Shown here piece by piece: positions 1 to 63,393 of a DNA stretch of 64,000 nt. The notes below the pieces were generated by a model. The model was not told where the DNA came from. It saw nothing but the letters and a program-made list of their open reading frames with translations, and did no database searches. Both the position numbers and the translations under genes were made by a program. Position 1 is the first letter of the stretch. Every line of letters starts with the position of its first letter. Origin of the DNA: Nakazawaea peltata (lineage: Eukaryota; Ascomycota; Pichiomycetes; Alaninales; Pachysolenaceae); contig BCGQ01000002.1 of the NCBI GenBank assembly GCA_001599355.1, positions 633,554-697,553 of the forward strand, written 5' to 3'.

Positions 1-528
1 ACATTGAAGCTGATGAGTGTGGAGCAATTGGAGTCGTGTTATCCCAACATTGCAAAGACCGAGACGGGAAAGAAGTATTTGGAACTGGCACAAGCACAGA
101 TATTCGAATTTTGGAGAAATGAATGTACAAAGGAGTTTGGACTGATCTATGAAGAGAGAGATTTAGAAGCTAAATTGGATTCATTAGACAGATTGATTTA
201 TGATGCGGAGAATCTCAGGTTCAATGGTGATGAGAATGCTAAATTATTTCCAAATGAACTCAAACCGGAGAATATCATACTGGCTAGACTCATAAATGCC
301 AAACGTGAGAAGATCGATTTATATAACCACCAGATAGAGTTACTCCGAGAACAGAACGAAAAGGAAATTATAAATCTCCAAAATTTGATGCAAGAGTCAG
401 ATAATTTGATCAGTGGGATGGTATCTGAAGTTTCGGATCACTTCAAAGGAGTGGATGATGAAGTCAAGAATTATGAAGAACTGAACCAAAAGATCAAAGA
501 ATTGCTTCGACAAATCCAGGATATTTAA
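1..528 (+). CDS. NNF1: Kinetochore protein Nnf1 (5' end cut off)
   Basis: Subunit of the MIND/Mis12 kinetochore complex, which links inner-kinetochore chromatin to the Ndc80 complex. The reading frame is open from the window edge, so the true start lies outside; the first ATG at position 13 would lose the N-terminal segment present in the family. The block EFWRNECTKEFGLIYEERD followed by a LD-LI helix matches the S. cerevisiae Nnf1 core (EFWTELCQREFKEIMEERN), and the C-terminal half is a long coiled coil. At least 175 codons are visible, against about 200 residues in the family. Identification rests on remembered family sequence. Confidence 0.85.
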   Translation, partial: TLKLMSVEQLESCYPNIAKTETGKKYLELAQAQIFEFWRNECTKEFGLIYEERDLEAKLDSLDRLIYDAENLRFNGDENAKLFPNELKPENIILARLINAKREKIDLYNHQIELLREQNEKEIINLQNLMQESDNLISGMVSEVSDHFKGVDDEVKNYEELNQKIKELLRQIQDI

Positions 529-6640: not shown

Positions 6641-7762
6641 ATGGGAAAAAGATATATTTCGACGGTGAATTGTGCCGCTGCGCATTCCAGCGATATCTTG
6701 GGCGTCGAGGTTTGCAAGAGGTACACGGTGACAGTAGGATCCGATGGTTATATCAGGTTATGGAAGAACGATGTACGGGACCTCAGTTCAGCCCGAGACT
6801 CGATGATCGAGCAGTTTGTCAATGCAAAGGGGTTACACCATGTAGCTGTATTTGAAGATGTCATTGAACTGGAGGTTTATGTCTTAGTTGCGGTCACTTG
6901 CTTTGATGGAAAAGTGTATATTTATAGAGTTGTTAATGACCTGTTCATTGAGCTTAAAGATTTAGACTGTGGCAATAACAACTACGCTTTGGCCTTTCTC
7001 AAGGATTCCGTTAATGGTAATAAGTTCATAGTCACTGAACTGACTGGTATAGGTAAGGTTTACGACTTGATCTTCGAGAGTGGAGTGGGTATCAAGATGG
7101 AATTACAAGGTAAACTTGAGTCCAAGGTACAAAATTTTGCCACATCGGTGGCTGTTGATGTTGATGGAAGTACTGTGGCAATTGGGTTCCAGAATGGAAA
7201 TGTACAGTTATTTGAATTGCCATCGTTGAAGCCAAGTTACTTGTTCTCTGGGTTTGGATTACAGAGCTCATCTACAACAGTAAGATGTATAGCTTTCTCA
7301 TCGAAGGGGAAATTATTGGCAGTACTGAGAGATTCGGGTGCTTATGGAACAGTTACTTTGTACGATGTGCATTATGGTGAGATCATTGGTACTTTGACCA
7401 AGACAAGCCATTCTTCCAATATTAGTATTGGTGGACATGCTCATGATGGATGGTGTTTCTCTTTAGATTTCAATGAGGATAGTACTTTATTGGTGACTGC
7501 TGGGTTTGATGATGTGTTAAGGATTTGGAATGTAGAGACCCGTGAAAGAGAGGCTAGTATTAGTGTTGGAAAGAGTGATTTCATTGATGAGGAAGAGGCT
7601 GCTGCTGCTGAGGATAGTATGGATAATTCGCTGGTGACGGGAGTTAGATTTATTTCGAAGGGGATCAGATTAGATAGTCCAGGTAGTGAGAAAAATGAAG
7701 GGATATGTTGTGTTGGATTTGATAAGGGGGTGAGATGGTTCCGTGAGGCTGGAGGGGCGTAA
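6641..7762 (+). CDS. SKI8: Ski complex WD40 subunit Ski8
   Basis: WD40 scaffold of the Ski2-Ski3-Ski8 complex, which feeds mRNA to the cytoplasmic exosome; in some fungi it also acts in meiotic double-strand break formation. The 373-residue protein starts MGKRYISTVNCAAAHSSDI, matching S. cerevisiae MSKVFIATANAGKAHDADI. WD blades include SDGYIRLWKN, AIGFQNGNVQLFEL and TAGFDDVLRIWNVETRERE. The C-terminus GVRWFREAGG is a Ski8 signature (S. cerevisiae IRWFREAGGK). Confidence 0.95.
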   Translation: MGKRYISTVNCAAAHSSDILGVEVCKRYTVTVGSDGYIRLWKNDVRDLSSARDSMIEQFVNAKGLHHVAVFEDVIELEVYVLVAVTCFDGKVYIYRVVNDLFIELKDLDCGNNNYALAFLKDSVNGNKFIVTELTGIGKVYDLIFESGVGIKMELQGKLESKVQNFATSVAVDVDGSTVAIGFQNGNVQLFELPSLKPSYLFSGFGLQSSSTTVRCIAFSSKGKLLAVLRDSGAYGTVTLYDVHYGEIIGTLTKTSHSSNISIGGHAHDGWCFSLDFNEDSTLLVTAGFDDVLRIWNVETREREASISVGKSDFIDEEEAAAAEDSMDNSLVTGVRFISKGIRLDSPGSEKNEGICCVGFDKGVRWFREAGGA

Positions 7763-11984: not shown

Positions 11985-14285
11985 CTAAAATCTCCAATCC
12001 TTATCAGCACTCTCAATAGCCCAATTAAACTTCTCCCTCAAAGTCTTAGTAAACAACTTCTCAATAGGAACATCATATTTCTTAGAAAATACAACAGTCA
12101 ATCTAGGATCAATATAGTTCATCTTAGACGTTCCTAAAGCCACCTGGGAATTATCTTCTTTGTCCTTCAATTGCAAAGTAGTGTTAGTGATTCTTTGCTC
12201 AACTCTTTCGATTTGTTGCTCCAATTTCTCCACCGTTACACTACCTTTTACTTCTGGTTTACCAGATTTCAATTCTTGCTTGTATTGTTTCAGCAAATCG
12301 TCAACTTTGGCCAACCACAGCTTCAATTCCTCTTTAGGCAACTTCTCTTGCTTCTCGGCCTTTCTCTTCTCGTTCTCACGCTCAAACTTCTTCTTATATT
12401 TCTCCTTCTCACGGGCAATAATAGTCGTATGGATCAGAGAGATCTCTTCCTTTGTCAAGTCGTCGATTTCCAGGAAATATTCAGGCTTCTTCTTCTTCAA
12501 TTTCAGATCTAATTGAAGCATCATCTTCTTAAGACGAATTTTTTGCCATGTCATCTCTTTAATCTTCTCTTGGATCTTGGCAACTCCCGTGTCATGGTTC
12601 TTACTGACGGTACGTTGGTGATTACACAAGATAGCAACGGCTCTATTAGCGGCATTGAACTTGACAACCTTCTCATTGACCGAACCTTCATTGGCAATCA
12701 AATCCAATTGATCTTGCATCGTTTTAGATGCATTATAAGTACGGAACACCTTGGCTGTTAAACCTGGCATGTAATTTTGGAAATGTTTGTTCAAAATGGA
12801 AGGATCTAATCTGTCGAATAAATCGTCTCCTGGCTTCTTGGGCAGTTTCTTGAAGATTCTCAAATTCTTGAATACCTGAATATCAACTTCGACCTCCTGG
12901 AAGAATCTGATCGAATCTTTACCCAAGAAATCGAAAGTGACTTTATTAGGAGGAGTCAAAGAAACATGCTCATAACGTAAAGAACAACATCCCACGGTAT
13001 CGGCTTCTTCTTCAGACTTCTCACCACCTGCTCTTAAGGCAAATACATCGATAAGATACGTCAGGGTAGCTCTCTGTCTGTCCAACATCAAATTGGATTT
13101 CAAATCTTTACGGTAGTCTTGTCTAATTCTCTCGATATGATCCTTCAATTCCCTGGCCTTTTCGAATTTCTTGAAGTCACTCATACCTTTCAAAGAGGAT
13201 GAGGCTGCGAATCTCACATACTTGACACTATTAGAGATATTCTCTCTCCACATGGCCAACCAAGCTACTTTATTGTCGTGTCTAATTTCTCCCCAGCTAT
13301 GACCTGGAGGTGGTGGTGGGATTGGGGCGTTCTCACTCAAGTTTAACACCACATCCTCAGGCAGAACTCTTCTCTTCAACTTCCCTGTCTTTGGATGAGC
13401 ACCACGACCTCTGAATAATCCTGGAGGTTCGATCTTGAAATTTCCAACCAGTTCTCTTCTTCCATTAAGCAAACAATACTTGTATTTCTCCTCCAGCAGA
13501 TCTCTTTCCAGCTTAATACGCTTCTTTTCCAGGGCAGGAAGCAGTTTCTTGGCCTCACGTTCTTTCACGAAATGATCATACATCTTGGAGAAATCACATT
13601 TCTCAAATTCGGTGATATTGGCATCTGGGCAACCTCCAGCCTCCTTCAATACCTCACAAAAATCCTTGAAGAAGTTCTTTTGGAAGACAGGGTTCTTAGC
13701 ATGATCGGTCTCTAACATAGCACCGAAAAATCCGGCCACTTCTTCCGCTTCCTTAGGTAAATTGACAGGCTTTCCATCGTAGATCAACTTGACCTTCTTA
13801 GGAAGAGGAACGTAATCAGGAGGAAATATTACACCGCTATGCTCAAGAGTGTCCCATTTGATCTCACCATTCAAGTCTTCTGCCTCCCACCATTTGAATT
13901 TCTGATCTTCCTCTTCATCTACGTCGTCATCATTCTTGATATCTGGAGTGTCTTCTTTCTTGACAGAAGCTTTCAGTTTCAGAGACTTTGGAGCTGGTTT
14001 CAGAGCTGGTTTTGTCACCTTTTTTGTGGTGGAAGACTTTGATACCAGCTTAGTGGTCTTAGCGCCCAGCTTTGTACTCTTCAAACTGACCGTTTTCTCC
14101 TCACTTTTCACCTTGACCTTACCATTAACTTTCCTCTTCTTAGCAAGAGGAACTTCGCTGTCATCTCCTGAGTCTATTGATTGAGGTGAGGTATTGGAAG
14201 ATTGGCTTAATTTTGACAATGGGGTGTCATCGTCGTCTGAGTCCGAGTCAATCTTAATTCTACGTTTATTTTTGTCAGTAGTCAT
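11985..14285 (-). CDS. TOP1: DNA topoisomerase IB
   Basis: Nuclear type IB topoisomerase that relaxes supercoils through a 3'-phosphotyrosyl intermediate. The 766-residue protein begins at the ATG ending at 14285 ([20 protein letters not shown]); the frame continues upstream only to a GTG. A charged N-terminal domain is followed by the core ([59 protein letters not shown]) and a coiled-coil linker. The C-terminal domain has [14 protein letters not shown], whose Tyr724 is the catalytic residue (S. cerevisiae Tyr727). The CTG codon at 13062-13064 falls on an Ala shared by yeast and human (RQRAVA). Confidence 0.97.
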
Positions 14286-15820: not shown

Positions 15821-18800
15821 ATGTCTCAAGGTAAGTAATTGTGATCTGAGAGGGTACGGGAGCATGGGCGGTGAGAATTGAATTCCCTTTCAGCCCCGCC
15901 TTTGGCCCCGCCACCCTTCCTCGCGTACCACCCTCCTGCCGCCGCCTCAGTTTCCGCATACTAACCAAATCAGTCGACTTCTCTCCCGAAGAAAAGGCTT
16001 CGTACAGCGCCATTTTCAAACTGCTCGACAAAGAAGGCCTTGGAATCGTCACTGGTGAAGTGGCTCGTCCGGTCTTTGAGCAATCCAGATTATCCACCCC
16101 TATTTTACGTGAAGTGTGGCAATTGGCCGACCCGGAGGGCAACGGATTCCTCACCGAGCAAGGTTTCTATGCTTGCCTTCGGTTAATTGGCCATTGTCAA
16201 AGGGGTCAGCCTCCTTCTCCAGCCTTGCTCGGAGTTTCAGGACCGGTGGCCAAGTTACTGCCAAGTACTCCGTTGCCTCAGCAGTTCTCTGGTACCCCGA
16301 CCGGAGGTTCTCGCCTGAGCTCTACTTCGACTGTGCCTGCTGCACCTCTTTTCCCTCCTCTTTCACTGCAAGACGTGAACAAATTCAGACAATTATTCGA
16401 TAAGATGGCCCCTACTGGCACTTTGAGTGGTGAACAACTGAAACTGATCTTCATCAAGGCTCAATTACCGACTGCTACTTTAGGTCAGATCTGGAATTTG
16501 GTCGATAGAAGTCAGCTGGGAACTTTGACTCAACAAGAGTTTGTCATGCTGATGTATCTTATAGAGCATTCCAGAAACAGGACTCTCAGTCACATCCCCC
16601 AATTTATTCCAGATGCTCTTTGGAATATCGCTGGAGGAGCCTCTCCTCTGCAAGTTCAAAGACTGCCATCTCAGATCCCAGTTGGAACCGGCAGTCCAGT
16701 ACCAACTCCTGCTGTTGCCAGAGTTCCTTCTGTTCCTACAGGAACTGTTCAAGATTGGATCATCACCCCAGCTAAGAAGCAACAATTTGACCTGCTTTTT
16801 GATAACATAGATCAATCTAAGAAGGGTGTATTGACTCCTAATGAGGTTGCTACCTTTTTGATGACTTCGAATCTTCCTCAAGAGACTTTAGGAGCTATTT
16901 GGGATTTGTCTGACATTGAGAATTCGGGTGAATTCACTAAGAGGGAGTTTTCTATTGCTTTGTATTTGGTGGAATGGAGATTAGCTGGGAAGGAATTGCC
17001 AGATATTGTACCTGAGTCGCTTGTTATTTCTGCTGGGCAGTATGTGGGACTGGCGCAGTCTCCAGCTCTGGCTCCAGCTCTGGCTCTGCATCTGTCTCAG
17101 CCTCCGCAACTGTCTCAGCCTCCACAACTGCCTTTGCAACTGCAACCTAAATCTTCCATGAACGATTTAGCCTCTTTAAACGATTTATTCTCGACTCCCA
17201 CCACTATTCAGCCTTCAGCTACTGGAAATCTCCCAACTAGAGCACCTACCACATCAGCCCCAGCTCCATTAAGATCATCTCTGACTGGAACAAGAGCTCC
17301 ATTTGTTCCAAGTTCCAATTTTGGTCAACAATTTGCTGCTCCTGCCGCCCCAGCTGTTGCAACACCTTCGGATCTGTCTCCTTCTTTACTCGAAGATAGT
17401 GGTAGTGAAGATGAAGATGGACCAATTTCTTCAGAACCAGTCAAGAGCCGCCCAATGATTCCAACTCGTGATCTGAAACCTCAGTTCACTGGAGGCTCGG
17501 CTTCTCCAGCTGTTGCTTCTCCGGTCGTTGCTTCTAGAGGGGTTACCTCTCCAACAGTCGCTGCTCCAGCCGTTGCAGCCCCAGCTGCTTCAGACCCTCT
17601 CTCAGATCCTCAACTCTCCCTGGCCACCACCGATATCGCCAACCTTTCCAACCAAATCAACTCCCTCACAAACCAAACTACTCACTTGAATGACAAAAGA
17701 GAAAAGGCAACTACCGAATTGAACAAAATCTTACTGGTAAAGAAGGACATAGAAGGCAAGTTAACCAAGCTCAGAATGTTATATCAACAGGAAGTTCAAC
17801 AAGTGCAAGAAGTGGAGACTGTTTTACTGCAATCGAAGCAAGAAACTGAGGCCTTACAGAAGGAAACTGCTCTCGTAGAGGCCAATTACCATGCCACTCA
17901 GGCCAAATTACAGCAATCTCAAGTAGCCTATGAGGAATCCCAGAAACAAATCGAACTGTTGAAGGGCAAATTGGGTAACTTGAATGCTGAGTATATCGAG
18001 TTACAAAGCCAACATGAGCGTGTAATTACACAGAAGGAAGAAACTGCTAGGGTATTAAGTGTAACTCAACAGCAAGTGAACGTTCAACAAACGAAGAATG
18101 ATGAGTTGAAAGCCACTCTTGACAAGTCAAATAAGGAACTGAATGAGTTAGAGCAGCAACATGAGTCTGCTAAGAGTACCTTGGAGTCGTTAAAGCTGGA
18201 GATTCCAATGTTGACAGCTCTGCTTTCGGCTGCTACTGCGACTGTGTCCATGACTAAATCTCTGTTGAAGGGTACTCACGATAACATCCAGTATCATACT
18301 CAGAAGAAGGAGGAACTTGAAGAACAACATAAGCAACTGAAGGCCGTTCAACTGGAAGCCAGTGACTTGACTGAGAAGTCGATGGGGGGAAGCTCTACTG
18401 GCATGGGAGGCTCTGTCTTAGCCGGTGCTGCTGGTGCTGCCGCTGTCGGTGCTGCTGCCGTTGGTACAGCTGCTGCCGGACTTTCCGGAGCAGCTCCTTC
18501 CCTGGAATCCCCTTCTACTCCGGTAATGGAATCTAAGGACCTTGAAAACAAACTCGAAAATCTCACTGTGGATTCCCCGGTCTCAAATAATCTGGTCGAG
18601 GCCGATTTAAGAAATACCGAAGAGACTTCAGCAAGCTCTCAAGTAGAGTCTTCTGACTTCCAATATACTAATCAATACCAGCAATTCAGCTTGCCTCTTG
18701 CTCGTCCTCAATCCACTACTTCCAGTGTTCTGAATAACCCACCTCAATCCGTAAGAGGAGAGGAAGATGTTTCCGAGACTGCTTCTGTAGGAGATGAGAT

Positions 18801-19893
18801 TTCCACTGAACCTGTGTCCGAGCATCCACCATTGGAATCTTCTAACACGTTGGGAGAAGTTGAAGAGGAACATGGTGAAGAAAGTGCAGAGACAGGTGGA
18901 ATGGAAGCCCGTGGTGCTTCTTCATCCTCTTCTGCTGCTGGTGAGTCATTCGAAATGGTTAATGCTGAGGTTGAAGAGCCTGTATCTGAACTGCTGGAAT
19001 TACCAGGAATGCCTGGTGGATTTGGCAGTGCTCCTGCCGTGCCAGAAGAGATTTCTAGTGATAAATCGGCCGTTGACTCGTTTAAAGTTCCAGCTGCTGC
19101 TCTTGGTGCTGGTTCCGTAGGTACTGCCGCTGCAGCTGCTCTGGGAGCTGTAGGACTTGGGACCTCTGCTAGTGCTGCTTCTGCTGATCCGATAGAGGAA
19201 TTCCCTCCAATCAAAGAACTTGAGTATGACGAATCGAGCTCTGACGATGAGGACGATTTCCATGACAGTGCTTTAGATGTAGAGAAACCTTCAAGTGATG
19301 ATTTTAAGGCTCCTCTGGAGGTTCCATCTGAGGCTGCTCCAGCTCTGTCTGCTCCAGCTCCGTCTGATTTCGATGACTTGGAACCTGCTGTAGAAGAATC
19401 AGCTCTGAAAGATGTCTCTTTCGATGAATTCGGAGAATTAGAAGAGGCTGCTCCTGAGTTCGGAAATGATGCTGATGCCGTCTTTGATGCTCCAGCTGAT
19501 GATGCTTTTGACCTGGGTTTCACCGATTCAACTGCCTTCCCAGTAGCTTCATCGGCCACTGGAAATGCATTCTCCTTCGATAATTTGGGTCCTGCTACTG
19601 CTGCCTCCAACAATGATGAATGGGATAAGTTGTTTGAAGGATTTGGTAACTCTGAAGCTCCAGATTCTTCCGCTCTGTTCACCGGATCAGCTGCCCCAAT
19701 TGCTGCTTCAGTAACTGGTGCAAGCTCAGTTGCTGCTGCCGCTACTGCCACCGCTCCTTCCACCCAAGCTCACGATTTGGCCATCCAAGAATTGACTGAT
19801 ATGGGCTTTGATCATGAGTCTGTCGTCAAAGCATTGGCCCAAGAAAATTGGAACCTCGAAAATGCAACCAATAGGTTATTGGACTCTGCCTGA
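15821..19893 (+). CDS. EDE1: Endocytic EH-domain/UBA scaffold Ede1 (one intron)
   Basis: Early-arriving scaffold of clathrin-mediated endocytosis, the Eps15 homologue. Exon 1 (15821-15830) encodes MSQ plus one base; the 143-nt intron has GTAAGT, TACTAAC and CAG; exon 2 is 15974-19893. The joined frame gives MSQVDFSPEEKASYSAIFK, a standard EH start. The product is 1309 residues: EH domains at about 5-95, 132-225 (TLGQIWNLVDRS) and 259-349 (GAIWDLSDIENSGEFTKREF); a Pro/Ala/Gln-rich linker; a coiled coil at about 552-795; a long acidic low-complexity part; and a C-terminal UBA domain (LTDMGFDHESVVKALAQENW). CTG codons are abundant; that at 16549-16551 sits on the EH Ala of F-V-x-A-M-Y-L-I. Confidence 0.95.
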
Positions 19894-25884: not shown

Positions 25885-28800
25885 ATGCAGGGCAAGAACT
25901 GGAAGGGATCTGAGACCCCTAATGGTCCTGAAAATAGACCAGGGTTACTGCCAACGTTTCCGTAAGTTATATTTGTGTTGATTGGCGAAGGGTCGACCCC
26001 CCTTCCCCTCTTACTCGATGGAGTCATATACTAACTATTAAAAAAGACGCCAACCTAACGCTCCTGTTTTACCGCCGCCATCAAGTTTAGAAAATGGTAA
26101 GTTCATCTCATCCATCATTGGAGCTCCTATTCACGTGTTGGATTCATTACTAACGATATGTTCAAGGCCAATATTATTTACCTTCGCTTCCTGGGTTGGG
26201 CAATTCTCATGAAAGTGGTAGTGGGTTTGGAATAAATCCGATGAATAACATGCATTCGGTAAGTTTAAAGATTTTATTTCACGATTCAAGACTTATACTA
26301 ACTTATTTTAAAGGAACCTTTACATCAGAAACCACTTGAACTGCTGCCTCCATCTCAAGTTACTCCACAACAGCAAGCTCCACCAACCGCCAATACAGGT
26401 TCCGCGCCACAAGCTGAATCCCTGCCATCACAGCAGCCACCTCAAGGGCTGCCTCAGGGTCCTCCACTGTCTCTGTCGGCTGGTTCTGCTTCCTCCACTA
26501 CTGGAGCCCCAGCTACAACCGCCGCTTCAACGGCTCAGACCTCTATGGGGATTCAGTCTGTATCGTCTAACTATAAACCATTAAACGTGAAGGACGCTTT
26601 ATCATATTTGGACCAAGTCAAGAATCAGTTCCAATATCAACCTGATGTCTATAATTTGTTCTTGGATATCATGAAGGACTTCAAAAGTCAAACGTGAGTA
26701 CATCAATTTGAACCATTCGAACCGTGCGCCTGTTACCCGGCCTTTAGATTTTTCCTCCGAGAAAATGCCAGGACCGTGTTATCTTAGGTAGGGTAACCTG
26801 CGCGGGTGGATGGTTGCGATAATAGGAAATTACTATAATAGGAAATCAATAAAGACTTCCTATTGAAGTATTTCCATTTTAGGAAATTTTACTAACAAAT
26901 CCATAGTATTGATACACCTGGAGTTATTGATAGAGTCTCAACTTTATTCAGAGGTCATCCAAATCTTATGCAAGGTTTCAACACATTCTTACCACCAGGT
27001 TATAGAATTGAATGCTCTTTAGACCCTTCAGATCCAAATCCGATAATTGTAACAACCCCAATGGGTACCACAGCTAGACCTGAGCTGGTTGGTGAGTATG
27101 ATCAAAGACAATGGGGTCAACAGCAACCTCCAATTCATCAAGGTGGTGCTCAATCTGACCACCCTCCAATGCTGCAACTGCCTCAACCACAGCCAGCTGT
27201 AATGAACCCTTATAACCAACTGTATGCTCCTCCAGGACAACTGCCTCCACTGGCATCAATGGTAGCACCTTCTGCGTCTCCAAATAGTCCAATTGAATTC
27301 AACCATGCTATCAGTTACGTTAACAAGATTAAGACTCGTTTCGCCAACCAACCGGATATTTACAAACATTTCTTGGAGATTTTACAAACTTATCAAAGAG
27401 AGCAGAAACCAATCACCGAGGTTTATCATCAAGTAACGGCCTTATTCCATGATGCCCCTGATCTTTTGGATGATTTCAAGCAATTCTTGCCTGATACTTC
27501 TTCTCAAGCTGAAAGACAGCAACAAATGCCTCCACAACAGCCTCTGCTGCCGGTTCAACAACAGCTGCAACCTCCTCAAGAGTACTATAAGCCTGGCGGA
27601 AAGAACTCTTTACCTCCTCTTGGTAATTTCCAACCTCCAGCAACTGGATCCAAAGAGAGAAAGAAGAAAGGTTACCCTGCTGAACTGCCAGTCTCCGATC
27701 TCAGAGGTGCTCCAATTGTTCCTTCTAAGAAATCCAAGAAAGACTTGGCTCAACAAGCCAATGAGATTCTCCAGGACAATCAAGTCCAGGCTGCTTCGAC
27801 ATTGTCAGAGGAAATTGGCTTCTTTGACAAGGTTAAGAAAGCTGTTGGTAACAAACAAGTATACAATGAGTTTTTGAAGATCATCAACTTGTATTCTCAA
27901 GATATTATTGACAAAGAGACATTAGTAGAACGTGTGGAAGGTTTCATTGGCCCATTCCCAGACTTATTTGAATGGTTCAAGCACTTTGTCGGTTACGATG
28001 GTAAGCCTTTACACATCGAGAACATCACCTTCAAGAAGCATCAATTGGAATTGTCATTATGTAAAACTTGTGGTCCATCTTATAGACTCTTGCCTAAAGC
28101 CGAGACTTTCATGCCTTGCTCAGGTAGAGATGATATGTGTTGGGAAGTATTGAATGACGAATGGGTTGGACATCCAACTTGGGCCTCAGAAGATTCAGGT
28201 TTCATTGCCCATCGTAAGAATCAATATGAAGAGATGCTTTTCAGAACTGAAGAAGAAAGACATGAGTACGACTACTATATGGAGGCTAATTTGAGGACGA
28301 TTCAAACTTTAGAAACCATTGCTAATCGTATCGCTAACATGTCAGCTGAAGAGAAACTGCAATTCAAATTACCTCCTGGCTTAGGTCATACTTCAACTAC
28401 CATCTATAAGAAGGTAATCCGTAAGATTTACGATAAGGATCGTGGATTTGAAGTGATTGACGCTTTACATGAGAACCCAGCTGTGGCTGTTCCTATTGTG
28501 TTGAAACGTTTAAAGCAGAAGGACGAGGAATGGAAACGTTCTCACCGTGAATGGAATAAGGTATGGAGAGAATTAGAACAGAAAGTGTTCATGAAGAGTT
28601 TGGATCATTTGGGATTGACTTTCAAGCAAACTGATAAGAAGTTATTGACCACTAAACAATTGATTTCGGAAATCAGTACTATTAAGATTGAGCAATCTCA
28701 AAAGAGATTACATCCTTTGACTCCAAATCCAAAAGAACAGTTAGAATACGAGTTTAACGATTACGGAATTGTTCTTGATATTCTCAAGTTGACTATTATC

Positions 28801-30462
28801 TTCTTGAACAACTCCTCGACATATTCAGCCAATGATAAAGAGAGATTAGAACTGTTTGTCAAGAGTTTTGTATCGCTTTTCTTCTCGTTGACTCCGGAGT
28901 ACATTGAAGAAGGGTTGGAGGCTCGTGATTTCGAGGCTTCAACTCAGGACAATTCGAACGATAAAGAGTCCGATGAAGTACCATCGGAGACTGATCTGAA
29001 GGAAGAAGCTCCGGTAAGTAAGAAACGTGGTCGTGGAGAGACAGATTTGTTGAAAGACGTATTAAGAAGGAACAACAATAAACTGGCTAAGAATAAACGT
29101 GAAGATACTCCTGAGACTTCTTCAGCTGGAGGTTCCGTGTCTGGAACTCCTCACCCTGAAGAAAGTGTTTCTGAACCAGTTGAAGAAGCTGAGATCTCCG
29201 AGCATATTTCAAAAGCTGCTCAAAGTTGGATAGATACAGTCTCAGCTTACGAAGAAGCTATCATCTCAGACTTCTCCTCCCCTCAAAGACACAACTACAA
29301 CTTATTCTCCAACACCACCATCTATGTGTTCTTCAGATACTTACGTACTTTGTATGAGAGATTAGAGGAGATCAAGAAGATGAATCTGGAAGTCAATCTG
29401 GATATTTCTAGTCGTAAAGAAACTCAGTTTGCTAAAGACCTCGGTTTGATTTCTCATCAATTACAAGACATGGGAATTGCCATGAAGGGAGATGACAGCT
29501 ATAATGAGATGTTGAAGTTGTCTACTCGTTTGATTGAAGGAGATCTCGAACATCAATGGTTCGAAGAAGCTTTAAGAGACGGTTACCGTAATCAAGCTTA
29601 TAAGTTGTTCACTATTGACAAGGTGGTTCAAGGTATTGTAAAACATCTGCACAGCATCGTTTCCGATCATAAAACCTCTGAGATGATCTTGTTGTTTGAG
29701 AAGGACAGAGGAAAGAGCTCTACTACAGCTCAAGAACAGATCTTATACCGTATGCAAGTACGTTCGTTCATGGGTCTGGATGATCATATGTTCCGTTTGA
29801 TGTTCAATGATAAGACCAACAAGGTGATTATTCAATTTGTCGACGTGGATGATTTGACATTGAAGGAATTTAAAGACGATGATTCCAAGTATAACTACTA
29901 TGTGACCACTTATGTCATGTCCCACCCTACCGAGAATATCCACTCCGATAAGATCTCTATACCTTTCTTGAAGGAGTCATTGAGAGAGGAAGAAGATGAT
30001 GAAGAACAAGAGGAACTGTTGAATGGATTCGTAGATCCTCAATTGAAGGTTAGCATTGATAAGAATACCTATAAAATGTTCTTTGAGGCTGGATCTTTCG
30101 ATGAGTTTTCTAGAAATAGTGTTTATGTCGGAGTCAATCCTAAGAAGTTGAAGCCTAGACAAAAGAAGATGGAGAAATTCGTTGGTATTTTGGAAGGTGA
30201 ATATGGAATGGGTAAGGAGAAAGAAGAGGCAGAGATCGAACTGAACAAACAGAGATTTGAAGTTTTGGTTAAAGACGGTGCTGAGCTGTTTATGAATTTC
30301 AAGGTAGTGGAATCAAAGGATGAGGATATTACCGAGACTACAGCTGATGGTAATGATACTAAGGAGGAGATTAAGGATAGCAGTAATGGAGAGGTGAAGG
30401 ATCAAGTAGTAGAGAAAGAGAAAGAGGTGAAAGATCTGGAAGGGGATGTCGAGATGAAGTGA
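25885..30462 (+). CDS. SIN3: Sin3 corepressor scaffold (four introns)
   Basis: Scaffold of the Rpd3 histone deacetylase complex. Five exons by splice signals and frame: 25885-25961, 26047-26096, 26167-26258, 26314-26693, 26907-30462. All four introns have TACTAAC and end in AG (85, 70, 55 and 213 nt). The product is 1384 residues. PAH1 (about 165-235, [20 protein letters not shown]) is split by intron 4; PAH2 is about 330-400 ([19 protein letters not shown]) and PAH3 about 500-570 ([19 protein letters not shown]). The HDAC-interaction domain (about 581-700) has [10 protein letters not shown] and [20 protein letters not shown]. The N-terminus and PAH1-PAH2 linker are Pro/Gln-rich with many CTG codons. 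Exon 1 encodes [20 protein letters not shown]. Confidence 0.95.
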
Positions 30463-37850: not shown

Positions 37851-40800
37851 ATGACTTTAATAGTGACCTCATTGTGAGTATCAGATGCTGTGGCAATCCA
37901 ATTGACTCTCTCAACATACTAACCACCCCCCTAGATTCTTACCTTATACTGTGGAATTCGAAGTAGGAAGCGAAGATCATGCGATTATTGAAGCGGAGGA
38001 GATAGAGGAGATGCAAGCTGTATCGGCGGTGGGTTCTAGACCGGTTTCCAGGCCATCCTTCAGCAAACGCGGGTCTCTGAAAGCTGTGGCTACCCTGAAG
38101 AGAGATCTCCCAGCTTCGGGGGTAGCGCCAGGCACTGCGCCAGGGACAGCCCCTGTAGCAACTAAGATGCCCTTAGCAAGCGGATTGGCTTCTGGACTGA
38201 CAAGCGCTGGAGCTTCGACTCCGGCTTTAGGTCAGAGCACATCGATCCTTAGGACGATGCAAGAAGCTGCAGCATCAGCGGCGGCATCATCTCCTGATAT
38301 CCCGGCTGGTTTCGGCTCCAATGCCAGTACGAAAAGTTCGAACCTGGGACCTCCAGGAACCTCAAATGGCCTCGGGGGTTTAGAAAACTCCGATTTGAGC
38401 AAGCTGTCGCTTGAAGACTTCTTTTATAATCATCCTAAGCTTCGTCGGTCCTCAGTGGCTAATAGTCCGAGCCTGTTGAGCTCCGGGACACTGACCCCAA
38501 TGGCCATAGAATTGGACCAAGGCTCAAGCATCTCTCAGCAGCAACATAATCAGTTGCTTAGAGCTGCTTTGGGTGGTGGAAGTGCTAGTTACATCCAACC
38601 GAAGGCTCGTACACCTCCAGTTATGAATAGTGCTGTGTTCGAAAGTGTAAAGAAGAAGGAGCCAAGTGCTCCTGGAGTTAAGATCGTTAAGAGTGTTGGG
38701 ACTACATCGCCGGCGGTGGTCAATACGCAGTCTGGGGCTACTATAGCTGCTCCCGACGCTGCTACTGGTGCCTCCACTTCAACTACGACTTCTGCTGCTC
38801 CTGCCTCTCTCTACTCCCTCCCTCAAAGAGTCTTCTCCTCCTCTGAGCTGATCCCAGGAACCGATATAACTTCCGATTCGATGATTTCTGATTGTAGTAT
38901 GGTCTCTAAAGAGCCAAAAATCACCCCATTTGGCGGGTTTTCACGTCCAGATGCCCAGATTTACAACCTCAACAGTAAAAGAGCCCAAGTCTTTGCTAAT
39001 GCACCTTTCGAAGTAGTCACTCTGAGAAGAGGGAACATTAGTATGGTGAAGGCCGTCCAAGGAGCTCTTGGGAAATCTGAAGAGCAGGATGTGACCTGGG
39101 TGGGAACTTTAGGGATGCCCTCAGACGAAGTTCCAAGTCTGACCCGTGATAAAATCACATCTAAACTCCTGGAACCCGATCTTTCAGCCGTTCCGGTCTT
39201 TGTAGACGATGTAACCTTCCAAGGCCACTATAAAAGCTTCTGTAAACAGATTCTATGGCCATCCTTACATTACCAGATCCCTGATAACCCTAAATCCAAG
39301 GTATTTGAGGAACATTCATGGGGTTATTATCAAAAAGTGAACGAACTGTTTGCTGATAGAATTGTAGAAACGTATAAAAAAGTAGACTCACCGGTCATTT
39401 GGATCCACGATTATCATCTCTTACTTGTTCCTGAACTTGTAAGAAAGAAACTCCCGGATCTGAAGATTGGTTTGTTCTTACATGTATCATTCCCGTCATC
39501 TGAAGTATTCAGATGCTTTGCTCAACGTCGTAGTTTACTCTCGGGAATGCTTGGACTGAATATTATCACTTTCCAGACCGAGGAGTATGTTAGACATTTT
39601 GTTCAGACTTGTAACCGGTTATTGTTGAGTGATTTTACAGCCGAGGAAGGTTCTGGAGTAGCTGGATCCTCTCCTTCGTTCACCGGATCTATCAGATTCA
39701 ACTCTCATTTAACTAAAGTAACTCATATCCCTGTAGGAATCGATGCTGGACTTCTCCATCGACAAATATCATCCTCTGATGACGTTCAGTACTGGCAACA
39801 GCTGATCCGTCAACGTTGGCCTGGTAAGAAACTTATCGTATCCAGAGACAGAATGGACAGAATCAGAGGAATCAAACAGAAGCTTCTCCTGTATGAAAAA
39901 TTCGTAATAGATCATCCGGAGTCACTTGAGGAGGTGATTTTAGTCCAAATTTGTCTTCCTGGTAACGATGATGATCTTCAGAGCTCAATTAGTTCGATTG
40001 TCGATCGGATTAATGCTCGTTCTCCTCATATAGCGTCGTCTTCTCAGTATCAACCTGTAGTTTTCTTGAATCAGGACATCTGTTTTGAGCAATATCTCGC
40101 TTTACTTGCTGAAGCAGATAGTTTTATAGTTTCTACCATGAGAGAAGGTATGAATTTGACTTGTCATGAGTTTATTGTGGCTTCTGATAAGAAACATTCA
40201 CCTTTGATTTTGTCGGAATTCACTGGATCTGCTTCGGTTTTCAAAGATGGAGCTCTTTTGATCAACCCATGGGATATTAAGCAGGTTGCAGAGCTGTTCT
40301 ACCGTGCCATTTCCATGTCTGAAGAGGAGAAAACTCGTAGATGGAGTAGATTAAACGAATTAACTATGAAACAGGATGCTAATCATTGGGTAAAACTGTG
40401 TATTGAGGCAATTGAAGGTCTGTGGGAGGAACAGAGTATTGGAGTAGGTAGTAGTTGTACTAAGGAAGGATTTAAGAGCAAATATATGACTACCTCGGGC
40501 TCCAGAGTCCTCCTCTTCAACCTCCTGTCTCTCACCTCTTCAAACTCTCTTGTCACCGTAGAATTCCCTAAAATGTTAGCTATCCTCAATAATCTCACCA
40601 GTGATAGCCGTAATTCCGTTTACGTAATGTCAGGTCTCCAACGAGACGAGCTCACTACTCGATTCCGTCAAGTATCAAGCCTCGGACTCATTGCTGAGAA
40701 CGGTGGATATGTAAAATTACCCGATGACGACAAATGGTATTCTTTACTGGACTCGAAATGGTGTTCAGAATGGAAACCATCTGTGCTTTCTTACCTCTCA

Positions 40801-41361
40801 TCGATTGTAGAAAGATTACCTCGATCCTCGGTCGATGAGCTGGATTGTACTGTAAGATTACATACCGAACAAGTAGGAGCCGAAGATATCGACACTAAGA
40901 CCATTCTCACTGGAGAACTGGTAGCTCATATTAATGATGTCTTTGGAGACGATAATGTCCATGCTGCTTGTCATGATGATGTCGTGGTAATTCAAGAGGG
41001 AGGATTACCTAGAAGACTGTTGCAATTGATTTGTGATCATATTAGAGAGAATAGAAGTGATTGGAAGGAGGAGTTTGAGTCGTTGCCAGTTTCTCCAACG
41101 AGTGAGAGTTTTGAGATGGGAAGTATTGGGGGAAGGATGGCTGGTGGCTCCACAGCACCTGGAGCTCCGGTAGGTCTTTTGTGTATCTTTGGAGGTCAGA
41201 GCCCTACCGATGAAGCTCTTTTCCAGCATGGTATTGAACTTGAACTTTCTCATCAATGCTCTCAATTGATGTCTATTGAAGTTGGAAAGACCAATCAAAG
41301 TTTTGCTAATCAGTATATTGGAGGAGTGAATGAGTTGATAAATATATTGAGTGATATATAG
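37851..41361 (+). CDS. TPS3: Trehalose synthase complex regulatory subunit (Tps3/Tsl1-like, one intron)
   Basis: Non-catalytic partner of Tps1 and Tps2 in trehalose-6-phosphate synthesis. Exon 1 (37851-37873) and exon 2 (37935-41361) flank a 61-nt intron (GTGAGT, TACTAAC, TAG). Splicing gives MTLIVTSLFLPYTVEFEVG, matching Tps3 MTIIVASLFLPYTPQFEAD. 1149 residues: a low-complexity Ser/Ala-rich N-terminus, a GT20-like domain (about 330-840: HDYHLLLVPELV, FLHVSFPSSEVFR, MREGMNLTCHEF) and a degenerate phosphatase-like domain (about 860-1149), where the catalytic DxDGT motif reads FNLLSLT, so no phosphatase activity is expected. CTG codons at 39460-39462 and 39556-39558 lie on Ala columns. TSL1 is the alternative name. 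Confidence 0.92.
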
Positions 41362-47042: not shown

Positions 47043-47777
47043 CTAAATTTCCCTCTTGAATCCTTCAAATCCGTATAGCAACTTGTCTCTTAGTTTATCA
47101 TCAATAAGTTCCTTCTGGTAGTTGATTGCCTCTTCCCCTACAAAGTATTTAATTGTATGCACTTGGAAGTTTTTACCGAAATCAAAATAATTGAAGAGCT
47201 CACCAGAATAATCGATAACATTTGGTCGTACCTTGACGTCGAAAAAAGGTTTATCTATCGATGCCACAGTTAGTTGGCCCAGTTTCTCACGGAAATATTT
47301 CCCACTGTCTCCTTTGAAATGGTGTGGCTTCTTAAAAAATGGACCCAACTCTCTTTTCTTGTGCTTCTCCTTCCCATAAATATCACTATGAGTACCCAAC
47401 CTAAGAATCCCTTTTAATCTTGTAATCGAGCTGATCAAGGTGTTTAGCTTTGTTTCGTAGATTTCCCTTGTAATGTCCAAATCAGGCTTCATTGCCGACT
47501 CTGAGCCTCCTAAGTCGTAGATGATATCGATGAACCTATTGAATTGCAGTTGGCCTACTTTCTCTCCGACTCTGGAATGCCTATAGAATATCTGACTAAT
47601 TGGTTGACACTCATGACGCGAAAGAAGCAGATGTCCCAGTTCATAGTCGTTCATCTGCTCCGTCTTATACTTGAACACATTATAAATATGGGACACCTCA
47701 TCTTGGGATGAAGGAGCTGTCGAGACCGACATACGGAATCGGACGAAATTCCTCGGATCAAAAGTGGATTTGAGCAT
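47043..47777 (-). CDS. Unrecognised protein, likely mitochondrial
   Basis: 244 residues with normal codon use and a plausible ATG. The start MLKSTFDPRNFVRFRMS is basic and lacks acidic side chains apart from one Asp, so it could be a mitochondrial presequence. No membrane segment. Regular helical stretches lie at residues 22-95 (EVSHIYNVFKYKTEQMNDYE, QPISQIFYRHSRVGEK), and a basic patch (GKEKHKKRELGPFFKKPHHF) at about 135-155. I do not recognise the family; it could be a mitochondrial translation or ribosome factor, but this is a guess. Confidence 0.6.
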   Translation of the reverse strand: MLKSTFDPRNFVRFRMSVSTAPSSQDEVSHIYNVFKYKTEQMNDYELGHLLLSRHECQPISQIFYRHSRVGEKVGQLQFNRFIDIIYDLGGSESAMKPDLDITREIYETKLNTLISSITRLKGILRLGTHSDIYGKEKHKKRELGPFFKKPHHFKGDSGKYFREKLGQLTVASIDKPFFDVKVRPNVIDYSGELFNYFDFGKNFQVHTIKYFVGEEAINYQKELIDDKLRDKLLYGFEGFKREI

Positions 47778-53777: not shown

Positions 53778-54187
53778 TCTGGATCGGTTTAGCTTGGTAG
53801 ATGACTGTGGAGAGCTCTCTTGGACCGACTGCCTTTTTATACTGGTGAATTTGTCAATCGGCGATAGGATAAACGCAAGTCCGAGGCCACATTCCGGCGA
53901 TAAAAAAGTTGTTATCGCCGGGGGTGACAAAGGTCGTGTGCATGAGATCAAAGGGGAGGGGGGTTTGCGAATAAGCGCCGATAGAAATGAGAGGGGATGA
54001 TGGGGCGAGAGAAGAGCGAATTTTATTTATTGAACTGAATTGAGGTTAAGTGAATTGAATTGAATTGAATTGAAGTGAATTGAATTGAATTGAATTGAAT
54101 TGAATTGAATTGAATTGAATTGAATTGAATTGAATTGAATTGAACTGAACTGAACTGTACTGCATTACGTTTGAGCTCTTTTTTATC
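53778..54187. other. Divergent promoter between OXP1 and beta-glucosidase
   Basis: 410 bases. GGTCGTG at 53932-53938 (minus-side promoter of OXP1) and a (GAATT)n microsatellite occupying the beta-glucosidase side. No gene seen. Confidence 0.65.
54043..54155. repeat. (GAATT)n pentanucleotide microsatellite
   Basis: About 20 copies of GAATT with a few single-base variants (GAAGT, GAACT) run almost to the start of the beta-glucosidase gene, ending 33 bp before its ATG. Confidence 0.95.
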
Positions 54188-58549: not shown

Positions 58550-60028
58550 ATGAAGTTTAGTAAAATCAGTGTGGCCCTTGGTGGGGCCTTCTTTGTATCG
58601 AGCAGTCAAGCTCTGATCATCCCCTTTTTCGGTTCGAGTGTTGGATTGGCCAATTTGTTTGATTCACAGCAAATTTTGACCCCCAAATTGGGTCCCGAGC
58701 TGCCTGTCGAGGTGTACCGGAACGAACGGAAACCTCATGATTTGATCAAAGGGTCATATATAGTGACCTTCAAGTCAGGGGTTGCTTCCGACTTGATCGA
58801 GCTGCATAAAGAATGGATCCGTACCGAGTTGATGAGCCTCAGTGTCTCTGGAGTCACCGAGGACGTTTTGGACGGGTTTGATTCGTTCGAAATTGGAGAT
58901 TTCAAAGGGTATTTCGGGCACTTCCCTGAACAACTTGTAACTATGTTACAGGCCAACCCATTAGTAGCTGGAATCGAGCAAAACCAGAGGGTTTTCGCTA
59001 GTGAATTTGCCGTAGAAACCGGAGCTCCATGGGGAATCGCCAGAGTCAGCAGCAGAGATCTGTTGGATTACTCTCAAACCTACACATATTCTTATGATGA
59101 TGAGGGTGGAGAGGGAGTCACACTGTATGTGATCGACACCGGGATCTATATTGACCACAACCAATTTGAAGGTAGAGCCTCTTGGGGAAAAACCATCCCA
59201 GCCAACACCGAAGATAAAGATGACCATGGCCATGGGACTCATTGTGCCGGCACAATCGCTTCCCAAAAGTACGGTATTGCTAAGAAGGCCAATGTGGTAG
59301 CTGTGAAGGTTCTTGGATGGGACGGTTCCGGAACTATGAGCGATGTCGTCAAAGGTGTCGAGTTTGCTGCTACTTCTCATTTGGCTATGGTTAAAGAAGG
59401 TAAGCCTGGGTTCAAGGGTTCTACAGCCAACATGTCATTGGGAGGAGGAGCATCTCCAGCTTTGGATCTGGCTGTTAATGCTGCAGTCAAGGCAGGTATT
59501 CATTTCGGAGTCGCTGCTGGTAATGAGAACGACGATGCTTGTTATTCTTCCCCGGCTAGAGCCGAGCTCGCTATAACCGTAGGCCTGTCGTCATTGTATG
59601 ACTACAGAGCATATTTCTCTAACTATGGTAAATGTGTAGATGTATTTGGACCTGGTGTCAATATTTTGTCTACTTATACTGGGTACCCTGAGGCCACTTC
59701 TTCAATGTCTGGAACATCTATGGCTTCTCCTCATGTAGTTGGGTTATTGAGTTACTTCTTGTCATTGTATCCTGAGCAAGAGAGTGAGTTTGGTACTGCT
59801 GCCATTACTACGGAGCAAATGAAGAAGAAGGTTTTGGCTTTTGCTACTAAGGATGCTTTGATGGGGGTTTATTCACCTACACCTAATTTGTTGATTTTCA
59901 ATGGGGGTGGAGAAGATTTGAGTTCCTTGTGGGGGTTCAATGGTAGTACTGCCGTAGCTCCACCAGCTGCAGAAGCTGACTCATCTTTATTGGAGAATTT
60001 TATTGAGGAAGTCAAGGGGATTTTCTAG
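58550..60028 (+). CDS. PRB1: Subtilisin-like vacuolar protease (Prb1/cerevisin family)
   Basis: 492 residues from the ATG at 58550 (MKFSKISVALGGAFFVSSSQA, a signal peptide). An I9 propeptide follows (about 60-155: GSYIVTFKSGVASDLIELHK), then the catalytic domain beginning APWGIARVSSRD. The triad is Asp196 (YVIDTGIYIDH), His228 (DDHGHGTHCAG) and Ser390 (SSMSGTSMASPH); the oxyanion Asn is in AAGNENDD. The C-terminal extension after about residue 425 is short. Vacuolar Prb1 and its paralogue Ysp3 share this layout; Prb1 is favoured by the sequence around the triad, but the paralogue cannot be excluded. Confidence 0.9.
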   Translation: MKFSKISVALGGAFFVSSSQALIIPFFGSSVGLANLFDSQQILTPKLGPELPVEVYRNERKPHDLIKGSYIVTFKSGVASDLIELHKEWIRTELMSLSVSGVTEDVLDGFDSFEIGDFKGYFGHFPEQLVTMLQANPLVAGIEQNQRVFASEFAVETGAPWGIARVSSRDLLDYSQTYTYSYDDEGGEGVTLYVIDTGIYIDHNQFEGRASWGKTIPANTEDKDDHGHGTHCAGTIASQKYGIAKKANVVAVKVLGWDGSGTMSDVVKGVEFAATSHLAMVKEGKPGFKGSTANMSLGGGASPALDLAVNAAVKAGIHFGVAAGNENDDACYSSPARAELAITVGLSSLYDYRAYFSNYGKCVDVFGPGVNILSTYTGYPEATSSMSGTSMASPHVVGLLSYFLSLYPEQESEFGTAAITTEQMKKKVLAFATKDALMGVYSPTPNLLIFNGGGEDLSSLWGFNGSTAVAPPAAEADSSLLENFIEEVKGIF

Positions 60029-60126: not shown

Positions 60127-60509
60127 TTCTATATAATTATGGTTTAGTATAATATATGAGTTATAGAGGATGTAGGAATGGTTAGTAGTGGCTACTAGTG
60201 GCTAGGGAGTAGTGGACTGGAGATGGGATGGAGATGGGACGAAGAAGGGAGACGGTCACCCAATCTAACAACTGAGTTTAGTCTATATTTATGAGGAAAT
60301 ATGGAGTAAATTGGAGATAAGCGATAAGGTGACAGTGATCAGTGATAGTGAGCAGTGATAGCGATCTGTGACAGTGATATGTGATATGTGACACTGATAT
60401 GCACTGATTGTGACACCGATATGTGAGAGCAATATATGTCACTAATATGCAGTCACTCCCACATATTCCTTCTGCACTCATCACCCCTCAGCAATTTATC
60501 AATTATTTT

Positions 60510-60531
60510 CGCGTCTTATTCAAATCGCGTC
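60510..60531. promoter_or_regulatory. Two MBF-type (GACGCG) sites upstream of MSH2
   Basis: CGCGTC at 60510-60515 and 60526-60531, complement GACGCG, lie 70 and 54 bp before the MSH2 ATG. ACGCG is the core bound by MBF in yeasts, which drives G1/S expression of replication and repair genes; S. cerevisiae MSH2 is one of them. Confidence 0.6.
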
Positions 60532-60579
60532 ACTCAATTCATTCCCTCAATTTACCCCCCATCTCACCACTTCAACACC

Positions 60580-63393
60580 ATGTCCAGTGTAAGACCAGAG
60601 CTCAAATTCTCTGACAGCTCAGATGAGTCGTCATTCTACAAAACATTCACGCGTGATTTCGAGTCAAAACCCCCTCAAACCGTACGCGTAGTCGACAAAC
60701 AAGACTATTTCATAGTCTTACAAGACGATGCCGAACTTGTAGCTGAGATGATCTACAAAACATCGAGTGTGATCAAGAAACATGGATTCAATGGACGTGA
60801 GATCAAGTATGTGACACTCTCGCCAGCAGTTTTCGCCAATTTCGTCCGCTTAGTGGTCTTTGAATTGGGCCATAAACTTGAGATTTACGACAAAAAATGG
60901 AAGTTGATCAAGAGTGCCTCCCCAGGTAATTTGATGGAGATTGACGAGTACATTCTGAGTTCAGATATGTCCTCATTGCCTATGATTGCTAGTATGAAGA
61001 TCTCGAACGTCGGTGGGTCCAAGAAAATTGGTCTCAGTTACGTTGATCAGAACAATAAGTTGATTGGAATTACTGAATTTATTGATAACGATATCTTTTC
61101 GAATTTGGAGAGTGTGTTGATCCAGTTGGGTATTAATGAGGTGTTGATTGCCTCGCCTGCTAATGACACCGATATCGACCATAATAAGGCCTGTCAAGTC
61201 ATCGATAGATGTAATATCACCATTTCTTATATCAAATCTGGAGATTTTAATACGAAGAATGTCGAGCAAGATTTGATCAGATTGACGGGTAATGAGTTGT
61301 TGTTCGCTACGGCTCAAGTATCACTGTTGACTTTGGCACATTCTTGTGCTAACTCCTTAGTAGAATATTTACATTTGATCTCATCGTCGGCTCCTAATGA
61401 AACTTGGGAACTTCAATGTTACCAACCTTCGAATTTCTTAAAATTAGACTATTCAGCAGTTACTCTGTTGAACTTATTTGATAAAAACGATGCCAGCAAC
61501 AGAACTACCTCGTTGTTCGGCATGTTAAACCATTGTAAATCCATCGGAGGCACCAGAATGCTCTCTCAATGGCTTAAACAGCCTTTAGTAAGTAAAAAAG
61601 AGATCGAAGAACGATTAGATATCGTTGAATTTTTGATCAATGAGGTATTCTTGAGAAATTCTTTGCAAGAAGACATTCTTAAACAAGTGCCAGACCTTTT
61701 GAAATTGGTCAAAAAGCTTGCTAAGAAGTCTGCTAGTAAATCCAGTTTGAATGATGTCATTAGACTTTATCAATTTGCGTTGAAAGTTCCTCAATTGATC
61801 GACTTACTTAAGAGCTCGATGGAAAGTAGTGACGATGCCGAACTTTCTCTGTTATTTGACCGTCTTTGGATCTCTCCTCTTGTAGAACACTCTGTTCAGA
61901 TGGCTAAATTCCAGGAATTAATTGAGAGTACAATCGATTTAGAGTCCTTGGAAAATGCCACGTCTGCTTCTCAATTAAATAACGTACAAATTAACCCGGA
62001 GTTCGATCCGAATTTAATGGAACTCGACTCCAAATTGAAACAATTACAAACTAAGATCAGACAAGAACATCTTAATGTGGCTGATGATTTATCCATGGAG
62101 CTGGAGAAGAAATTGAAATTGGAGAATCATCAGACCCATGGATGGTGTTTCAGATTGACCAGAACCGACAGTGCTGTCTTGAGAGGTAACAAACTGTATA
62201 AAGAATTACAAACCGTAAAAGCTGGAGTCTTCTTTACCACTTCCAGATTACAAGACTTGTGTTCGAGAGTTTTAGAGATTCAACTGGAATACGACAAGTT
62301 ATCCAGTAGTTTAATTAAAGAAATCGTTGAGATTTCGTCTACATACTCTCCTGTCTTCATCAAGTTGTCCATTTGTATCTCTACATTGGACGTTCTTGTG
62401 GCCTTTGCTCATGTCAGTCTGTTTGCTCCTACTCAATATAGTAGACCGGCCAAGATCTATGACATTGACGACTCTTCACGTAAATTAGACCTCCGCAATT
62501 CCAGACATCCTATTTTGGAGTATCAAGAAGACATGTCGTTCATTCCAAACGATGTAGAATTCATTAGAGGTGAAAAAGAGTTCCATTTGATTACTGGTCC
62601 TAATATGGGAGGTAAATCTACGTATATTAGACAAATTGGAGTTATATCTTTAATGTGTCAAATCGGATGTTTTGTTCCATGTGATGAGGGATCGGAATTA
62701 TGTATTTTCGACTCTATTTTACTGAGAGTTGGGGCCTCCGACTCTCAATTGAAAGGTGCCTCTACTTTCATGACTGAAATGTTGGAGATGTCTTCTATTT
62801 TACAGCTGCTGACCAGTAATTCTTTAATTATTGTAGATGAATTAGGAAGAGGTACCTCTACTTACGATGGGTTCGGATTAGCTTGGTCTATCAGCGAACA
62901 TATTTCGTCGAAAATCCACGCCTTCACCTTATTCCTGACCCATTTCCACGAACTTACAAAGTTAAGTGAGAAAGTATCTACGGTGAGCAATTTACATGTG
63001 GTTGCCCATATCCAGGACTCGAAACAAGACTCAGATCAAGATGAGATCACTCTCTTATATAAAGTAGAACCGGGGATTTCCGACCAGTCATTTGGAGTGC
63101 ATGTTCTGGAAGTTGTGCAATTCCCTCAGAAAATTATCGCCATGCTGAAGAGAAAGGCCACCGAATTGGACGAATTCAGCAGCGAAGGAGACAAAAAGAG
63201 AAGCAAATGCAGCCCGGAGCAGATCCTTCTGGGAAATGAATTGTTGAAACGAATTTTGTCGGAATGGAAACAGTCGGTAGTTGATTTGACCGATCTGCAA
63301 GAGATTATTGCCCAATTCAGACAATTGATCTCGACTAAGTACAAGCAAGAAGTTGCCAACGACCAGTTCCTCCAAGAACTGTTGTCCCTTTAG
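60580..63393 (+). CDS. MSH2: DNA mismatch repair protein Msh2
   Basis: Nuclear MutS homologue that forms MutS-alpha and -beta with Msh6 and Msh3. The ATG at 60580 is chosen because the product then starts MSSVRPELKFSD, matching S. cerevisiae MSSTRPELKFSD; the frame runs further upstream but is not conserved and covers the promoter sites. 937 residues. Lever and clamp domains contain LKQPL and LENHQTHGWCFRLTR. The ATPase has Walker A GPNMGGKS (673-680), VDELGRGTSTYDGFG and the THFHEL block. Six CTG codons sit on Ala columns of yeast or human Msh2 (see findings). Confidence 0.97.
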   Translation: MSSVRPELKFSDSSDESSFYKTFTRDFESKPPQTVRVVDKQDYFIVLQDDAELVAEMIYKTSSVIKKHGFNGREIKYVTLSPAVFANFVRLVVFELGHKLEIYDKKWKLIKSASPGNLMEIDEYILSSDMSSLPMIASMKISNVGGSKKIGLSYVDQNNKLIGITEFIDNDIFSNLESVLIQLGINEVLIASPANDTDIDHNKACQVIDRCNITISYIKSGDFNTKNVEQDLIRLTGNELLFATAQVSLLTLAHSCANSLVEYLHLISSSAPNETWELQCYQPSNFLKLDYSAVTLLNLFDKNDASNRTTSLFGMLNHCKSIGGTRMLSQWLKQPLVSKKEIEERLDIVEFLINEVFLRNSLQEDILKQVPDLLKLVKKLAKKSASKSSLNDVIRLYQFALKVPQLIDLLKSSMESSDDAELSLLFDRLWISPLVEHSVQMAKFQELIESTIDLESLENATSASQLNNVQINPEFDPNLMELDSKLKQLQTKIRQEHLNVADDLSMELEKKLKLENHQTHGWCFRLTRTDSAVLRGNKLYKELQTVKAGVFFTTSRLQDLCSRVLEIQLEYDKLSSSLIKEIVEISSTYSPVFIKLSICISTLDVLVAFAHVSLFAPTQYSRPAKIYDIDDSSRKLDLRNSRHPILEYQEDMSFIPNDVEFIRGEKEFHLITGPNMGGKSTYIRQIGVISLMCQIGCFVPCDEGSELCIFDSILLRVGASDSQLKGASTFMTEMLEMSSILQLLTSNSLIIVDELGRGTSTYDGFGLAWSISEHISSKIHAFTLFLTHFHELTKLSEKVSTVSNLHVVAHIQDSKQDSDQDEITLLYKVEPGISDQSFGVHVLEVVQFPQKIIAMLKRKATELDEFSSEGDKKRSKCSPEQILLGNELLKRILSEWKQSVVDLTDLQEIIAQFRQLISTKYKQEVANDQFLQELLSL

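Follow-up and report, generated by a model that had tools for sequence, protein, structure and literature searches.

The window, by which we mean the whole 64-kb stretch of DNA that was analysed, is yeast-like nuclear DNA with a G+C content of 42.3%. It contains 27 non-redundant open reading frames (ORFs) of at least 150 amino acids. (Of 30 frames, three were set aside: an open-ended duplicate and two that overlap the gene at 44420-46006.) A Pfam scan covered 20 of the 27 ORFs, and the other seven start at 10406, 14888, 20162, 22256, 32305, 48158, and 54527. The scan matched 18 of its 20 ORFs and gave no Pfam match for those at 8355-10253 and 47043-47777. A 632-amino-acid ORF without a Pfam match carries short repeats at 9354-9388 and 9560-9684, and the first of these arrays repeats the in-frame unit GAA CTG AAG CAA. 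Another tandem array (54029-54154), with about 25 copies of ATTGA, lies upstream of the gene at 54527.

The ORF at 60436-63393 (+ strand, 985 amino acids) is MSH2. It matches each of the five MutS domains in Pfam, and it aligns to the Msh2 chain 2o8b_A with E = 2.2e-198. We take this chain to be the human protein (the PDB table gives the molecule only). Among the 37 PDB matches there are six Msh2 sequences, which share the same aligned range, and the five that are listed are almost identical to the human protein. The natural start is most likely the ATG at 60580 (residue 49 of the open frame), as the first-pass annotation had it, because query residue 60 pairs with residue 12 of the chain. This gives a coding sequence at 60580..63393 (+). 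Tandem repeats of a degenerate GTGATA type (60329-60426) lie at the upstream edge of the open frame.

The MSH2 ORF contains 18 in-frame CTG codons, all on the + strand; one of them (60472) precedes the ATG start and the other 17 lie opposite a residue of human MSH2. The first-pass annotation had placed six of these codons on alanine columns, and all six do face alanine in human MSH2. They are the CTGs at 61465..61467 (in ALNLF; flank score 2.58), 62722..62724 (flank score 3.42), 62809..62811 (the second of a CTG pair), 62935..62937 (in the motif F-x-T-H-F-H-E-L; flank score 4.25), 63106..63108 (flank score 4.17), and 63145..63147. At the remaining eleven, the human residues are F, E, L, P, N, T, N, S, L, M, and I. 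It had also been claimed that none of the CTGs checked falls on a conserved leucine. This holds in substance, but two of the 17 codons do face a human leucine, in flanks that score just 0.08 (61849) and 1.00 (63229).

We also read the MSH2 columns, with CTG masked, against 40 bacterial and archaeal loci of the MutS type, which were confirmed from 110 matches to patterns chosen by the tool (THFHELTK among them). Alanine predominates opposite 62809 (A33 S5 V1 M1), 63106 (A34 G5 S1), and, in nine aligned loci, 63145 (A8 L1). Opposite 62935 we found alanine at 27 loci and serine at 13, so the alanine of the FATH motif, which had been described as nearly universal in MutS proteins, is merely the majority residue at these loci. 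Judged by these sequences, 62722 is a small-residue column (T26 S13 C1) and not an alanine column. The first CTG of the pair, at 62806, is opposite serine in human MSH2 and mostly opposite asparagine or glutamine in the 40 loci (N19 Q16 H3 Y1 K1), and the column of the CTG at 62419 has 17 gaps among 35 loci (the rest being V6 N4 E3 I2 L2 Q1). Pooled over the CTG columns (n = 227 cells), the commonest residues were alanine (0.45), serine (0.14), and threonine (0.11). As controls, the fraction of leucine was 0.50 at TTA (n = 483), 0.74 at CTT (n = 74), 0.25 at TTG (n = 208), and 0.04 at CTC (n = 79, with phenylalanine at 0.51 and isoleucine at 0.42), and the fraction of alanine was 0.73 at GCT (n = 99) and 0.29 at GCC (n = 217). 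At this evolutionary distance, true leucine codons do not always face leucine, but they face mostly hydrophobic residues, and CTG does not.

For a broader view of decoding, we tallied alignment columns for eight genes of the window, each against one solved homologue and with CTG translated as leucine. This setup favours the standard code because CTG is read as leucine in it. (The protease was aligned to 3f7o, its second-ranking match. The SIN3 columns come from residues 1-181 and 274-673, so that two small domains, the weakly aligned residues 182-273, and all residues beyond 673 are not included. The TatD gene had no match in the PDB at 1e-8, so it contributes through Pfam only.) Outside of MSH2, CTG is opposite alanine at 142 in NNF1 (13..528, +), at 7325 in SKI8 (6641..7762, +), at 13064 in the DNA topoisomerase I gene (11985..14285, −), at 28357 in SIN3 (26968..30462, +), at 39889 and 40294 in the trehalose synthase/phosphatase-like gene (38011..41361, +), and at 59123 and 59585 in the subtilase (S8) protease gene (58550..60028, +).

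Over all eight genes, the 56 CTG columns comprise 14 alanines, 6 leucines, 3 serines, and 33 other residues. As 33 of the 56 face neither alanine, leucine, nor serine, many of the CTGs must be at variable sites. The five other leucine codons (295 columns) gave A5, L170, and S5; GCN codons (181 columns) gave A77, L6, and S19; and serine codons (261 columns) gave A26, L3, and S87. Alanine is far more frequent at CTG than at the other leucine codons (p = 9.5e-9, Fisher test), which makes a chance origin of the alanine signal unlikely. In the best-conserved flanks (scores of at least 2.0), there are 24 CTG columns, with ten alanines, one leucine, and one serine. By BLOSUM62 sums, alanine is the best of the 20 amino acids at CTG (+23 half-bits, versus −6 for serine and −43 for leucine). 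The same procedure returns the standard amino acid for 58 of the 61 sense codons, if ties are counted as agreement. The three codons that depart are CTG (n = 56, best alanine), CGC (n = 3), and CGA (n = 5), of which the last two are too sparse to count; CTA is sampled by one column. CTG is the sole well-sampled codon that is off the standard code.

An emission model with frequencies taken from the window's other codons also ranks alanine first of 20 at CTG, with threonine 28.7 bits, serine 29.2 bits, and leucine 70.7 bits behind. Without MSH2 (39 columns), alanine is still ahead of glutamine by 13.6 bits and of serine by 14.1 bits. When columns were bootstrapped, alanine ranked first among nine candidates in 97.1% of replicates, and it beat serine in 99.9% and leucine in 99.97%. 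Gene by gene, alanine scored above leucine in eight of eight genes and above serine in six of eight. The exceptions are SIN3 (by 0.5 bit) and an EDE1-like gene (by 0.9 bit, from one column).

A separate line of evidence comes from Pfam scores under NCBI translation tables 1 (leucine), 26 (alanine), and 12 (serine). Summed over 34 families, alanine is ahead of leucine by 117.3 bits and of serine by 41.5 bits. Relative to leucine, 24 families rise with alanine, 7 fall (each by 0.6 bits or less), and 3 are level; relative to serine, 21 rise, 6 fall, and 7 are level. The largest preferences for serine over alanine are in Abhydro_lipase (69.6 versus 67.7) and Inhibitor_I9 (34.2 versus 33.2). Without the five MutS families, alanine still leads leucine by 94.2 bits and serine by 35.4 bits.

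The tally of 34 families omits overlapping or weaker families. Two of these prefer serine to alanine (scores for leucine, alanine, and serine): EF-hand_1 (23.6, 25.7, 28.4) and EF-hand_6 (19.7, 21.0, 24.1). Also omitted were UBA_7 (20.7 in all three), PAH_ZNF598 (24.4, 23.6, 23.7), Esterase (21.8, 21.9, 21.8), EamA (22.1, 28.4, 23.9), Hydrolase_4 (which matched under alanine only, at 20.9), and all but one (WD40) of the 22 beta-propeller families on SKI8. Among these 21, 16 rise and 5 fall when leucine is replaced by alanine. Four of the falls are of at most 1.0 bits. The fifth is Beta-prop_THOC3, which scores 83.2 with leucine, 59.5 with alanine, and 59.9 with serine, as one of its three matched stretches is lost; all of these scores are far under the family's cut-off of 305, and if it were counted, the lead of alanine over leucine would be 93.6 bits. 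Thus, the claim that CUG is alanine in MSH2 is borne out by the alignment columns, the Pfam scores, and the bacterial MutS columns, and the same is seen over the other genes tested. The proposed order of fit, with alanine ahead of serine and serine ahead of leucine, likewise agrees with the column and Pfam sums.

CTG accounts for 249 of 14,894 codons in the window (1.7%), and if it is alanine, it makes up 21% of the window's alanine codons. (Read in their two alternative frames, the ORFs give CTG densities of 487 and 41, which were not used because they are uninformative about decoding.) The gene with EH and UBA domains at 16405..19893 (+), which we take to be EDE1-like, has 39 CTGs in 1162 codons. 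In an alanine- and proline-rich stretch of this gene (17050-17092), CTG alternates with GCT and GCG, and the stretch would read PAAAPAAAA if CTG is alanine, which is a small separate sign of this decoding. Other genes are poor in CTG: there are 4 in the 1317 codons of a hydantoinase/oxoprolinase gene (49824-53777, −), 3 in the 528 codons of an acetyl-CoA hydrolase-like gene (44420-46006, −), and none in the 807 codons of 54527-56950 (+). Clades with a changed code are described as having comparatively few CUG codons, placed outside conserved sites (PMC5951914). The window has few CTGs in some genes, yet they are present at conserved sites of MSH2.

Could the standard code account for these data, with CUG as leucine and the alanine columns due to chance or to poor alignment? 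Leucine does face CTG at 6 of 56 columns, 7 of the 34 Pfam families prefer it to alanine (by 0.6 bits or less), and, outside the tally, Beta-prop_THOC3 does so by 23.7 bits. However, leucine is strongly depleted at CTG relative to its 170 of 295 columns at the other leucine codons (p = 1.7e-11, Fisher test), even though CTG was translated as leucine for these alignments. Also, just one of the six leucine columns (39346) is in flanks that score 2.0 or more, and alanine outscores leucine both in the Pfam sum and in every one of the eight aligned genes. The CTG columns were not best matched by leucine, and we consider the standard code to be the least probable reading of all, with a negligible chance of being correct. 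A serine code, like that of the Candida (Ser1) or the Ascoidea/Saccharomycopsis (Ser2) yeasts, comes closer, as serine ranks between alanine and leucine in the sums. In MSH2, it would suit the codon at 62806, given the serine of the human protein, and the 13 of 40 bacterial and archaeal loci with serine at 62935; it is also preferred to alanine by 6 of the 34 Pfam families and by the two EF-hand families outside the tally. Against this, serine is at just 3 of the 56 CTG columns, as compared to 87 of 261 columns at true serine codons (p = 3.4e-6, Fisher test), and alanine leads it in the emission model (29.2 bits), in the Pfam sums (41.5 bits), and in 99.9% of the bootstrap replicates. The best match at the CTG columns was not serine, as it should be under table 12, and we regard a serine code as very improbable.

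Decoding could instead be ambiguous, so that CUG is mostly alanine but has a real share of leucine or serine from a second CAG tRNA or from mischarging. Some other yeasts in which CUG has changed are documented to decode it ambiguously or to have more than one type of CAG tRNA (PMC8629427, PMC5951914), and the frequency of leucine at CTG (6 of 56) is somewhat above that at GCN codons (6 of 181). But in the best-conserved flanks, alanine outnumbers leucine by ten to one among the 24 CTG columns, and the seven CTG columns that were read in the 40 MutS loci include no leucine column. So, ambiguous decoding seems slightly less probable still than a serine code. A little more probable than either, though still quite unlikely, is that CUG-Ala arose independently outside of the described Ala clade, or that the source is a member of that clade that still reads some CUG as leucine; nothing in the window points to either.

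We conclude, from sequence comparison, that the window is almost certainly budding-yeast nuclear DNA in which CUG, a leucine codon in nearly all organisms, is decoded as alanine, that is, the known code of Pachysolen, Nakazawaea, and Peterozyma (NCBI table 26, the CUG-Ala nuclear code). CUG-Ala was discovered in Pachysolen tannophilus in 2016, and Krassowski et al. (2018) placed Nakazawaea and Peterozyma alongside it in the Ala clade, using BLAST-based prediction together with mass spectrometry on 18 key species (PMC5951914). The NCBI taxonomy places Nakazawaea and Pachysolen in the order Alaninales, and this order is given as the one in which CTG stands for alanine (PMC11540330). The window shares with the code of P. 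tannophilus and the Ala clade the reading of CUG as alanine, the standard meaning of the other well-sampled codons, and a budding-yeast-like gene set. In the CUG-Ser codes of the Ser1 and Ser2 clades, the same codon was reassigned by a novel CAG tRNA, but serine fits the CTG columns of the window worse than alanine does. The source of the window is most likely a member of the Ala clade. The G+C content of the N. ambrosiae assembly JANBXG01 is 42.3%, which is equal to that of the window (PMC10106607), but such an agreement is no more than a lead.

Members of the Ala clade read CUG with an alanine tRNA whose anticodon became CAG (PMC5951914). Going by the literature on the clade, the reader of CUG in the source organism would also be an alanine tRNA with its anticodon mutated to CAG, the ancestral leucine tRNA(CAG) would have been lost, and the new tRNA(CAG) would be charged by alanyl-tRNA synthetase (AlaRS). 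AlaRS would accept a tRNA with a CAG anticodon because its charging does not depend on specific bases in the anticodon; alanine identity in tRNA is given by G3:U70. The decoder is not seen in the window because searches of the 64 kb for tRNA genes, with Rfam at gathering scores and with ARAGORN at bacterial settings that may miss intron-bearing tRNA genes, found none.

The CUG-Ala code itself is already known, and what the window shows is a genuine case of this established exception. Five sequenced CUG-Ala species have been listed (PMC6692504), and Codetta agreed with the known distribution of CUG meanings in 453 of 462 budding yeasts (PMC8629427). Still, 64 kb alone was enough to recover one of the rarest known changes in nuclear codes, in which a sense codon has moved between amino acids. 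There is also a practical consequence: protein predictions made from this genome with the standard code would have leucine in place of alanine at roughly 1.7% of their residues, some of them at conserved MSH2 sites. Neither CUG, CTG, nor genetic code occurs as a term in the main text of a Nakazawaea genome paper (PMC10106607), and protein sets from this clade may therefore carry leucine-for-alanine errors.
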